Source of the DNA: Candidatus Ancillula kalotermitis
GTDB lineage: Bacteria > Actinomycetota > Actinomycetes > Actinomycetales > Bifidobacteriaceae
DNA: 45,310 bases
Direction: 5' to 3'
NCBI GenBank assembly: GCA_031273495.1
Contig: JAISRT010000024.1
Coordinates: 1-45,310 of the forward strand
In this document: one piece after another, positions 34,888 through 43,187 of the stretch
How positions within the stretch are numbered: the stretch's first letter is position 1
Layout of the letters: every line of letters begins with the position of its first letter
Translations under genes and position numbers: made by a program
The notes under the pieces: generated by a model
Database searches by the model: none
What the model was told of the DNA's origin: nothing
What the model saw: only the letters and a program-made list of their open reading frames with translations

Positions 34888-34896
34888 TGCTATAAT
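34888..34896 (+). promoter_or_regulatory. Extended -10 promoter before the ATT-start phosphatase
   Basis: TGCTATAAT lies 6 nt before an in-frame ATT at 34903. The promoter begins 7 nt after the stop of the ADP-ribosylglycohydrolase-Nudix gene. Confidence 0.7.
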
Positions 34897-34902
34897 AGTG
34901 AA

Positions 34903-36120
34903 ATTAGCACAGGAAAATCTGCGGCTCTACGGTCTTTAACGGCGCTTCTTCTCGGATGCGTTGCGGGTTTTGTCGCCGTTTTTTTGCACCGGATGTGGCT
35001 AAATGCTGTCCTGCCGTTCGGGTTTATCATCGCAATTTTAGGGCTCTTCTGCGCTGGTGTCGTCGTTCGGGCGTATCTTGGCAAAAACTTCACGTACATC
35101 TTTGCGCTTTCCGTTTCGCTGAGTATTTTCTTCCTCGGAACGCTCTCTTCGGGTGACACACTCATCCTCGCTGGCACGATTGAAGGGGAGAAAGGGTATG
35201 CAGGGCTAGTCGGTGTGTGTTTGATGCTCTTCTCGTTCATCTTCCCGTTCCTTGCCTGTCTGCTGCCTGAGAAGTTGTTCACACGGCGTCTGCGTGCTCC
35301 GATTTGGCGAGTTCCTGACGCTGACCTGCAGTTTATGCTCTCGATTGTTGAGATTACCGACGTTATGCTGGAAACCGCGTTTTTGAGCGGTAAGTTCAAG
35401 GCTGAAACTAAGTCGGATTCCACACCTGTGACCGAAGTTGACCGCGACATCGAGAAGTATATTCGAAGTCATATCGAGAGGAAGTTCCCCAACGACGGCA
35501 TACTGGGAGAAGAAGGTGACGACAAACCAGCAAAAAACGGCAGCACGAGGCGGTGGATTGTCGACCCAATTGACGGGACCAAGAATTTTGTCCGTGGCGT
35601 TCCGATCTGCGCAACGCTTATTGCACTCGAGGACGAGGTGACGCTCGAAAATGGTGAACGCATCATCAAGCCAATAAAGTCAATCGTTTCGGCACCACTG
35701 CTGAAGACGCGCTATTGGGGTGTTTCTGATGCTAAAGTGCAGCTCGCCTTCAAGCAGTTTGACCAGTCGAAGCCCGTGCGGATTGAGGTTTCTGGAATAT
35801 CTGACCCGCAGGACGGGACAATTTCTATATCTTCAAGAGGCGGGTGGGCGCAGAATGGGCGCGCGGATTTTATCGACGGTTTGACAAGACGGTTTGCTCG
35901 TACGCGTGGGTTCGGCGACTTCTTTTCGTATATGCTACTTGCACAGGGGAGCGTCGATTGTGCTACTGAACCAGACTTAGAGCTCTATGATATTGCGGCA
36001 CTACTTCCGATCGTCGAGGGTGCAGGCGGTAGGCTAGTTGATGTTGACCAGAATGCTTGGACTACTCGCGCCGGGATACGCTCTGCGCTTGCGACTAATG
36101 GTGCCCTGACACTCACATAA
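34903..36120 (+). CDS. Membrane-anchored inositol-monophosphatase-family phosphatase (HisN-like), putative ATT start
   Basis: A predicted 405-residue protein. The first 125 residues form about four membrane segments (SLTALLLGCVAGFVAVFL; LPFGFIIAILGLFCAGVVV; IFALSVSLSIFFLGTL; AGLVGVCLMLFSFIFPFLACLL). From about 145 an inositol-monophosphatase domain follows, with KSDSTPVTEVDRDIE, the metal ligands in ILGEEGDD and WIVDPIDGTKNFVRG, and ELYDIAALLPIVEGAGGRLVD. Actinobacterial HisN histidinol-phosphatases are its closest type, but those are soluble. The ORF track starts at TTG 34984, which cuts the first membrane helix. The frame stays open to the previous stop with no ATG, GTG or TTG; ATT 34903 is exactly 6 nt after a -10 box. 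If the ATT start is wrong, 34984 is the fallback. Confidence 0.85.
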   Translation: MSTGKSAALRSLTALLLGCVAGFVAVFLHRMWLNAVLPFGFIIAILGLFCAGVVVRAYLGKNFTYIFALSVSLSIFFLGTLSSGDTLILAGTIEGEKGYAGLVGVCLMLFSFIFPFLACLLPEKLFTRRLRAPIWRVPDADLQFMLSIVEITDVMLETAFLSGKFKAETKSDSTPVTEVDRDIEKYIRSHIERKFPNDGILGEEGDDKPAKNGSTRRWIVDPIDGTKNFVRGVPICATLIALEDEVTLENGERIIKPIKSIVSAPLLKTRYWGVSDAKVQLAFKQFDQSKPVRIEVSGISDPQDGTISISSRGGWAQNGRADFIDGLTRRFARTRGFGDFFSYMLLAQGSVDCATEPDLELYDIAALLPIVEGAGGRLVDVDQNAWTTRAGIRSALATNGALTLT

Positions 36121-36693: not shown

Positions 36694-36977
36694 ATGGTCA
36701 AACTCGCTTGCCAGTTTGGCAAATAAGCGGAAGGAGAGCTCGAGAGGAGAGCGCAGCGGTTCTTCCTCTCGAAGTTAAATTTGTTATGAATAGCACTTAC
36801 TGAATTCGCCGCATTTGGTTCGATCGCTCCGCGCTCTCATTACGCCCCTCGCACAGGCTTCGCCAGTGCTCAAACACACTCCACTCGCTTTACGCCGCCG
36901 AATAAATCGTCGGCTGCTCGCTACGCTGGGCATGTGCTTCGCCACCCTGCGAATGAAGTTAGTGCTATACTACAGAT
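36694..36977 (+). repeat. Family-3 promoter-bearing cassette upstream of TPM operon
   Basis: The palindrome (36699-36718, one base changed), GGCAAATAAGCGGAAGGAGAGCTCG and GCGCAGCGGTTCTTCCTCTCGAAGTTAAATTTGTTATGAATAGCACTTACTGAATTCG are followed by about 110 bp unique to this copy. It ends with CTTCGCCACCCTGCGAATGAAGTTAGTGCTATACT. The matching copy lies in front of malic enzyme on the other strand. Confidence 0.85.
36963..36971 (+). promoter_or_regulatory. TPM-asd-aro operon extended -10 promoter (leaderless)
   Basis: TGCTATACT is followed by ACAGAT and then the ATG at 36978 (6 nt). The promoter is the terminal part of a family-3 cassette. Confidence 0.75.
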
Positions 36978-40634
<3,657 letters not shown>

Positions 40635-42223: not shown

Positions 42224-42257
42224 CACTGTCCGCGGACACATATACCCTTATGAGTCT

Positions 42258-42348
42258 CAGCATAAAGCAATGTCATCCTTGGGCAGCATAACGTGTCCCG
42301 AGGACCCATAATGAACCTGACAGTGAGTGATGTCTCGAGGGTGACAGT
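42258..42348. repeat. Family-2 palindromic repeats
   Basis: CAGCATAAAGCAATGTCATCCTTGGGCAGCATAACGTGTCCCGAGGACCC and GTCTCGAGGGTGACAG. They lie between the convergent ends of the acyl-CoA synthetase and coaC genes and may act as a bidirectional terminator. Confidence 0.7.
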
Positions 42349-42349
42349 A

Positions 42350-42883
42350 TTATCGCTCGTCAAGCACTGCGCGAACTATATCCTCAACGCTGGCTAGTGC
42401 GCCACGTCCCTCCACTCCACACGCTAGTCGGGCTGTCCGCGGCTCGATGACTTCCCAGCCGCGGTTTCGCAAAGTTTCTAGGTTACTGCGGGTTGCAGCG
42501 TTCTCAAGCATCACGGTGTTCATTGCGGGGGCGACCACTTTCCTTGTCGCGTCGGGGAGTGCGAGAACCATAGAGCTTAACTGGTCGTCAGCAATGCCGT
42601 GCGCAATTTTAGCGATGATGTTCGCGGTTGCGGGGGCCAAGCAAAATACATCGACACTCTGCGGAAGGTCAACGTGCACAATTTTCTCTGCCACTGGTTC
42701 GTCAAGCACATCGAGATAGACATAATTCTGGCTCAGCGCTTGCATAGTCAGTGGTGTGATGAACCCGCAGGCATGCTTACTCATTACCACGCTCACTTCG
42801 ATATCACGTTTTTTGAGCGCAGAAACAACATCGGCCGCCTTGTATGCAGCAATCGATCCAGAAACACCGAGCAGTACCTTAAT
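42350..42883 (-). CDS. coaC: Phosphopantothenoylcysteine decarboxylase, stand-alone, putative ATT start
   Basis: A 177-residue flavoprotein of the CoaC/HFCD family that decarboxylates 4'-phosphopantothenoylcysteine in coenzyme A synthesis. KVLLGVSGSIAAYKAADVVSALKK is the classical N-terminus. The catalytic His is in EKIVHVDLPQSVDVFCLAPATANIIAKIAHGIADDQLSS, the Asn in VVAPAMNTVML, and the flap Cys in RLACGVEGRGALASVEDIV. Most actinobacteria have a fused CoaBC; the CoaB ligase half is missing here. The ORF track adds 22 residues (GQTRLRVWQISGRGV...) that are a translated repeat and promoter. No ATG/GTG/TTG stands at the homologous start; ATT 42881-42883 does, exactly 6 nt after TGCTATACT. Confidence 0.9.
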   Translation of the reverse strand: MKVLLGVSGSIAAYKAADVVSALKKRDIEVSVVMSKHACGFITPLTMQALSQNYVYLDVLDEPVAEKIVHVDLPQSVDVFCLAPATANIIAKIAHGIADDQLSSMVLALPDATRKVVAPAMNTVMLENAATRSNLETLRNRGWEVIEPRTARLACGVEGRGALASVEDIVRAVLDER

Positions 42884-42889
42884 TCCATT

Positions 42890-42898
42890 AGTATAGCA
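42890..42898 (-). promoter_or_regulatory. coaC extended -10 promoter (leaderless)
   Basis: On the minus strand TGCTATACT is followed by AATGGA and then ATT AAG GTA CTG. The ATG inside AATGGA is out of frame with coaC. The promoter directly abuts a family-3 palindrome. Confidence 0.75.
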
Positions 42899-42901
42899 CG
42901 A

Positions 42902-42948
42902 CACCCCTCTTCCGCTTATTTGCCAAACTCGCAAGCGAGTTTGACCCA
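42902..42948 (-). repeat. Family-3 palindromic core next to coaC promoter
   Basis: GGGTCAAACTCGCTTGCGAGTTTGGCAAATAAGCGGAAGAGGGGTG on the minus strand matches the start of the 36360 copy over about 45 nt. It ends 3 nt before the coaC promoter. Confidence 0.85.
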
Positions 42949-43187
42949 TTCTGTCACCCTTGGCTTTATGCCACGCTGCGCTGGGATGACACTGCGAGGG
43001 TGTAATGAGAGCGTGGAGCGTGTGTCATTCTTGGCTTTATGCCGAGAATCTATAATGGCATGACTGACGCGTGGATCCTCGGGACAAGCCCAAGGATGAC
43101 ATGGTGGCGCGGTGTGTCCGTTACCGTGTGTCACCCTTGGCGTCCCATGTCACCCTTGGGCTTGTCCCGAGGGTCCACATTGGCGCG
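42949..43187. repeat. Family-2 palindromic repeat cluster
   Basis: Units include TCACCCTTGGCTTTATGCCACGC, TCATTCTTGGCTTTATGCCGAGAATCTA, GATCCTCGGGACAAGCCCAAGGATGACATG and GTCACCCTTGGGCTTGTCCCGAGGGTCCAC. With the family-3 core it fills most of the roughly 470-bp space between coaC and rpsD; no gene is seen. Confidence 0.85.

Follow-up and report, generated by a model that had tools for sequence, protein, structure and literature searches.

A putative leaderless AUU start at coaC of Candidatus Ancillula kalotermitis, within a candidate genome-wide class of non-AUG starts

The coaC locus and its ATT codon

We analysed the start of coaC, a standalone gene for phosphopantothenoylcysteine decarboxylase, in a window of 45,310 nt of Candidatus Ancillula kalotermitis (contig JAISRT010000024.1); all positions are numbered in this window, the genome itself is denoted G000 and its genus relatives are denoted G010, G011 and G012. 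The gene stands alone, with rpsD divergent and an AMP-ligase-like gene convergent, and the 470 bases separating coaC and rpsD contain repeat sequence. An initial annotation had placed an ATT codon directly ahead of the CoaC homology and 6 nt behind the motif TGCTATACT, and had taken this ATT to be the start codon at the first transcribed base. The minus strand reads GTG(42904-42902) TCG TGC TAT ACT AAT GGA ATT(42883-42881) AAG GTA CTG CTC GGT, which translates across box and start as VSCYTNG-I-KVLLG, and the profile alignments bear out the placement of the ATT: position 2 of Pfam Flavoprotein aligns to the residue directly after it, in a match covering positions 2-160 of 162, and position 2 of the TIGR02113 CoaC profile aligns to residue 49 of the stop-to-stop open reading frame (ORF), in which the ATT is residue 48. 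The TIGR02113 match spans profile positions 2-173 of 177 and scores 212.7 bits, under the curated cut-off of 261.4 bits.

The reading frame is otherwise intact and, as the annotation had stated, contains no ATG, GTG or TTG between the TGCTATACT box and the ATT; in-frame GTG, TTG and ATG codons lie 7, 17 and 22 codons upstream of it, every one beyond the −10 box. The upstream extension of the ORF had been described as translated repeat, and a 34-nt inverted repeat is indeed found there. The nearest canonical codon downstream in frame is a GTG 29 codons past the ATT and, because the homology to CoaC begins at the ATT, a start at that GTG would cost approximately 28 conserved residues. No Shine–Dalgarno sequence lies between the putative 5′ end or box and the ATT, the spacer being AATGGA, which holds an out-of-frame ATG (42888-42886) that the annotation did not mention. 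From 80 fetched loci, 27 relatives of CoaC, none of them from the same species, were compared at this column: two have ATG here, 15 have their start one codon earlier and most of the others have it further upstream.

Table 1. Features of the window discussed in the text
Feature	Positions	Strand	Basis
Coding sequence of coaC (standalone gene for phosphopantothenoylcysteine decarboxylase; 177 residues and stop), read from ATT	42350..42883	-	profile matches
coaC stop codon	42352-42350	-	
ATT, putative start codon and putative 5′ end of the transcript	42881..42883	-	transcription start inferred from −10 box
6-nt spacer AATGGA	42884..42889	-	sequence reading
Extended −10 box TGCTATACT upstream of coaC	42890..42898	-	genome-wide excess over reversed control
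In-frame GTG upstream of box, main rival coaC start	42902..42904	-	
34-nt inverted repeat arms, intergenic repeat region upstream of coaC	43071..43178	.	
Box-N6-ATG heading another gene of the window, for comparison	36963..36980	+	
Box-N6-ATT heading HisN-domain gene, possible further non-AUG start, not forced by homology	34888..34905	+	

The promoter box and the triplets behind it

The assembly of G000 is fragmented and 81% complete (1,070,202 bases in 62 contigs), and TGCTATACT occurs in it 233 times, compared with five times for the reversed pattern, an approximately 45-fold excess. The chance of a box at an exact distance from a given codon is thus approximately 1e-4, and the box ahead of coaC is not a chance occurrence. 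This excess is the highest among 189 genomes of the family; milder excesses over the reversed control occur in G010 (46 against 9), G012 (21 against 3) and the family genome G165 (46 against 8), and none in G011 (8 against 10). The commonest position of the box, in the window as in the genome, is 6 nt ahead of ATG, in keeping with the annotation's remark on other genes here, and this arrangement is that of putatively leaderless genes.

In what follows, canonical codons are ATG, GTG and TTG, ATH stands for ATA, ATT or ATC, GTH for GTA, GTT or GTC, and RTH for either; box-N6 denotes a box, 6 nt and then the triplet. A strict count was made in the 833,177 bases (78%) of G000 that were read, with the relaxed box TGNTAN[AG][ACT]T and a spacing of 6, for ORFs no shorter than 120 codons that have a stop no more than 30 codons upstream. 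It gave 130 triplets (ATG 72, GTG 7, TTG 0, ATA 14, ATT 12, ATC 2, GTA 3, GTT 4, GTC 1, other 15), of which 28 were ATH and eight GTH. The enrichment in ATH was confined to spacing 6, such triplets being rare among the non-canonical ones at spacings 5, 7, 8 and 9 (p=8e-13), and looser patterns applied to the whole genome gave 124 instances of box-N6-ATG and 91 of box-N6-ATH, against 1 and 2 in the controls.

The relatives, sampled in part (291 kb of G010, 181 kb of G011 and 180 kb of G012), together gave 46 triplets in the strict count, comprising 38 canonical and eight other, with no ATH and no GTH; the difference from G000 has p=8e-5 for ATH against canonical triplets and p=1e-5 for ATH and GTH taken together. 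Likewise, among ORFs of at least 200 codons, 22 of 539 in G000 have an in-frame box-N6-RTH ahead of any canonical codon, and the 336 counted in the relatives have none (p=2.4e-5), although at least three of the 22 (rpsD, L110-196 and the GalE-like ORF L097) are in our judgement probably not real non-AUG starts. Where single genes could be compared, a similar box can precede ATG in the relatives: GlgX has TGCTATAAT-N6-ATG in G010 and TGTCATAAT-N6-ATG in G011, IspF has TGCCATAAT-N6-ATG in G011, and coaC of G011 has GATAAT-N6-ATG with an N-terminus longer by one residue. The change is therefore specific to G000 among the sampled genomes. After these counts we rejected the idea that the ATT of coaC is a single-gene rarity, and its description as an isolated oddity gives way to a wider one, since box-N6 followed by ATA, ATT, ATC, GTA or GTT heads many genes, and several of these lack any canonical start that could be used.

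Genes for which no canonical codon can serve

A non-AUG codon was regarded as forced if no canonical codon lay between the upstream stop and that codon and at least nine aligned residues would be lost at the next canonical codon, judged from NCBIfam and Pfam alignments and a listing of all in-frame codons. The box-N6-RTH candidates were scanned together in 40 of 43 cases, with rpsD and L087:8015-8425 outside the scan and coaC scanned separately. Seven boxed genes emerged: GlgX (ATA, 33 aligned residues lost), PriA (ATC, 39), PrfB (ATT, 12), TyrA (GTT, 25), NadE (GTA, 36), PncC (ATA, 19 or more) and MetF (ATA, up to 9). To these we add Tgt, which has GTA behind a near-match box, CGCTATACT, would lose 43 residues and has no usable canonical start. 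In a second group canonical codons occur only upstream of the box; besides CoaC (ATT, 28 residues lost), it holds IspF (ATA, 42), a GT8 enzyme (ATT, 20) and a PgfS-like GT2 enzyme (ATA, 15-19). Judged by these alignments, there are thus, besides coaC, at least seven boxed genes, and Tgt, in which no canonical in-frame start fits the conserved N-terminus. The weaker cases of TpiA, Alr, ProA, IspG, TilS, ThiL, RuvB, KsgA, NadK, LepA and TrpE were not used as forced, nor was NadB, in which an in-frame ATG adjoins the box, and the GalE-like ORF was set aside, as profile position 71 is the first that its family match covers.

We also scanned ORFs that lack a box and whose first canonical codon comes late, namely at least 19 of 45 such ORFs listed for G000 (20 proteins) and 10 of 20 listed for the relatives. 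Forced among those of G000 were Tgt, GlmM, ScpA and perhaps RlmB; none of the 10 from the relatives was forced, five of these having any profile match. Three frames of G000, a PcrA/UvrD-like one (L072), an ATZ/TRZ hydrolase (L068) and the GalE-like L097, lack 50-160 profile positions at the N-terminus, which points to gene truncation or decay, or else to frameshifts in the assembly.

Start selection on leaderless messages and the alternatives

We consider that coaC is probably leaderless with a 5′-terminal AUU start, one of a class in this genome in which bases 1 and 2 are A/G-U and the third base is relaxed; an ATT start that coincides with the first transcribed base or adjoins it passes all the sequence tests available, with the 5′ end inferred from the promoter, and about a dozen or more genes in the genome seem to use similar non-AUG starts. 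In the mechanism that we propose, the box at 42898-42890 would direct transcription from the A of the ATT or a base adjoining it, giving a leaderless mRNA with AUU at its 5′ end as start codon and a CoaC with the predicted N-terminus M-KVLLGVSGSIAAYK or KVLLGVSGSIAAYK. The 70S ribosome, or a 30S–fMet-tRNA complex, would bind the 5′ end directly and the mRNA end, rather than Shine–Dalgarno pairing, would set the placement, so that an initiator tRNA with anticodon CAU may need only two Watson–Crick pairs. On leaderless mRNAs here A/G-U would be required at the first two bases, with A, U or C besides G accepted at the third; a third-base check dependent on initiation factor 3 (IF3) would be bypassed or weak, a route that would yield the pattern RUN, and under the relaxed check ATG would have drifted to ATA, ATT and rarely ATC, among the sampled genomes only in G000. 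The spectrum at base 3, with A and T far over C, looks like mutation under relaxed selection. With somewhat less confidence than for coaC itself, we favour the view that the lineage no longer discriminates the third base on leaderless mRNAs, or perhaps on others as well, and uses AUN and GUN starts genome-wide with an unchanged CAU initiator; this would be a relaxation of mitochondrial kind in a bacterium, the sampled genus relatives keeping ATG or GTG. We see no sign that the ATT regulates coaC, and it is most likely a working start rather than a regulatory device specific to the gene.

Several observations weigh against this reading. The promoter itself favours AT at +1/+2, also ahead of Shine–Dalgarno genes, so that some ORFs behind box-N6-ATH belong to leadered genes whose short leader happens to be in frame; six box-N6 genes with a Shine–Dalgarno ATG downstream (AdhE, AtpA, PstS, rpsD, L081 and L110-196) were taken as leadered. 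In G010 the pattern box-N6-ATH has 26 sites, against 19 for ATG, many of them heading no ORF and none used by the sampled ORFs of that genome, so that ATH after a box does not by itself mark a start. We therefore rejected the counting of every box-N6-ATH as a start and sought the genes described above, for which no canonical codon can serve. Furthermore, E. coli and mycobacteria do not accept starts of the AUH or GUH type on leaderless mRNA (PMC9031893, PMC4633059), and the molecular cause of the relaxed third base was not found among the initiator tRNA, the presence of IF3 and the tails of uS9 and uS13. Finally, genes outside the box class also look non-canonical, which suggests relaxation beyond leaderless mRNAs: GlmM, right after rpsI, has ACG in place of Met, ScpA begins at GTA, preceded by AAAGGGG and directly past a stop codon, and RlmB possibly starts at ATA behind GGAAGGGG.

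In vertebrate mitochondria, where the code is altered and the Met tRNA modified, leaderless mRNAs have AUA and AUU starts; G000 would be alike in its putative leaderless AUN starts but differs in having an ordinary initiator arm. The leaderless RTG genes of mycobacteria, as described by Shell et al. (2015) (PMC4633059), are alike in having a −10 box close upstream, a start at the 5′ end and no Shine–Dalgarno sequence, in an actinobacterium; they are, however, restricted to ATG or GTG at +1, whereas G000 presents ATA, ATT, ATC, GTA and GTT, as read from its sequence. Leaderless initiation in E. coli resembles our proposal in its 5′-terminal start codon, 70S-type initiation and reduced dependence on initiation factors, but strongly prefers AUG, with GUG, UUG and CUG poor or inactive (PMC9031893). 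Since both are stricter, something in this lineage must differ; why leaderless initiation demands AUG, or AUG and GUG, is stated as not known in the same accounts (PMC9031893, PMC4633059). In vitro, IF3 requires Watson–Crick pairing of the first two bases and excludes weak pairs at the third (PMC10158994), and with IF3 present it is mostly 70S, and not 30S, that binds model leaderless mRNAs (PMC9031893). Bacterial RTH start codons sensitive to IF3 are described for infC (AUU or AUC) and Streptomyces sigR (GTC), but these are single leadered genes whose starts serve regulation, sigR with an extensive ribosome binding site, rather than a genome-wide leaderless class (PMC5472188), and coaC differs from them in having no Shine–Dalgarno sequence after the box. 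One switch to AUU is recorded among 61,358 reconstructed ancestral AUG starts in prokaryotes (PMC5622118). We recognised no report of genome-wide AUA or AUU starts in bacteria in the literature searched, mainly titles and the openings of abstracts, and do not claim their absence from print; nor were the terms ‘start codon’ and ‘leaderless’ found in the text of a study of the termite-flagellate symbionts Ancillula and Opitulatrix (PMC11707648). If the proposed relaxation is real, the organism would amount to a naturally occurring start-codon selection mutant, with roughly a quarter of box-N6 ORFs headed by AUH or GUH; comparison with relatives that use AUG or GUG could reveal the ribosome part or factor that enforces the third base, and gene finders limited to ATG, GTG and TTG would truncate or miss genes in such genomes.

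The alternative that survives best, although we hold it only tentatively, is that start choice has been loosened for all mRNAs, leadered ones included, for example through a weakened IF3 or a ribosomal change, and shows most on leaderless genes. GlmM, ScpA and perhaps RlmB, in coupled or Shine–Dalgarno-like contexts, make such a general weakening, strongest on leaderless mRNAs, possible. However, triplets spaced 4-9 nt behind AGGAG in G000 comprise 72 ATG and 15 ATH, against 13 ATG and 26 ATH at the control spacing of 16-21, and there is thus no bulk excess of ATH at Shine–Dalgarno-spaced sites. Loss of IF3 was rejected, since each of the four genus genomes has infC; at the E. coli Arg99 column IF3 has Lys in G000 and Arg in G010, G011 and G012, but another IF3 chain in the PDB has Ser there, so that the column varies and the exchange was kept only as a lead. 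The R99L substitution weakens codon discrimination in E. coli; the term ‘R99L’ itself was not found in the literature searched. Truncation of the uS9 and uS13 tails was not supported, since the C-termini read in G000 resemble those read in the relatives: uS9 ends in QFSKR in G000, G010 and G012, and uS13 in KTVAGKKK in G000 and G011 and in KRTVAGKKKAK in G012. An altered initiator tRNA found no support from a pattern search and ARAGORN. The pattern search gave a single initiator-type anticodon arm, CGGGCTCATAACCCG, identical in G010, G011 and G012, and its remaining matches read like reverse-strand T-loop sequence; a second initiator could sit in the missing 19% of the genome, and the 16S rRNA was likewise not found in this 81% complete assembly. 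As to infC itself, the gene apparently starts with TTG behind AAAGGAG in G000 and with ATT in G011, and in G012 it has no canonical in-frame codon ahead of the conserved N-terminus.

Less likely is a coaC translated from the GTG at 42904-42902 on a longer transcript, with TGCTATACT not its promoter and VSCYTNGI preceding KVLLG, a start that predicts the N-terminal peptide SCYTNGIKVLLG. The GTG is in frame and preceded by the G-rich GGAAGAGGGG, and some CoaC relatives do have 2-8 additional residues ahead of the conserved start; yet almost no spacing separates the G-run from the GTG, the extension arises from translating the box, a motif some 45-fold over its reversed control, and GlgX, PriA, TyrA, NadE and PncC share the box-N6 arrangement with no canonical codon upstream. 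We think it improbable that coaC has recently lost its start and is decaying with a dead ATT, as might be entertained for a reduced genome in which the PcrA-like, hydrolase and GalE-like frames look truncated, because the gene is otherwise intact, its partner CoaB, which has an ATG start, is present as well, the two co-occur in G000 and G011 and are both absent from G010 and G012, and the core genes PrfB, PriA and NadE share the non-AUG feature. Least probable of all is a base error or local frameshift at the coaC start, such as a miscalled ATG, for which the fragmented assembly and the out-of-frame ATG 5 nt upstream of the ATT might speak: non-canonical triplets recur at this distance from the box in many independent genes whose frames are intact, with an A/T bias at base 3, and the relatives show no such thing, so that sequencing error is unlikely for the class, the argument being weaker for coaC alone.

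The leaderless AUU reading of coaC aside, the origin of the gene and the repeats around it deserve a brief description. The best CoaC matches in named genomes are from Streptococcus and from Clostridiales/Oscillospiraceae bins, which suggests that coaC was acquired horizontally; most CoaC matches within the family sit in long open frames of 400 or more codons, unlike the standalone gene. A search of a plasmid collection gave no match. On both sides of coaC (42952-43182 and 42252-42313) lie dispersed repeats, direct as well as inverted, that share the core TGTCATCCTTGGGCTTGTCCCGAGG. In addition, a near-identical promoter, GCGAATGAAGTTAGTGCTATACT, occurs in 19 copies in the 833 kb read, ahead of unrelated genes (e.g. 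in L105, L070 and L101), with window copies at 36950 (+) and with the box at 16153-16145 (-). Its upstream flanks are of few kinds only (GCTTCGCC.., CGGAGGAAAATT..), resembling a dispersed portable promoter, and the triplet behind the copies varies among ATG, ATT, ATC and ATA.
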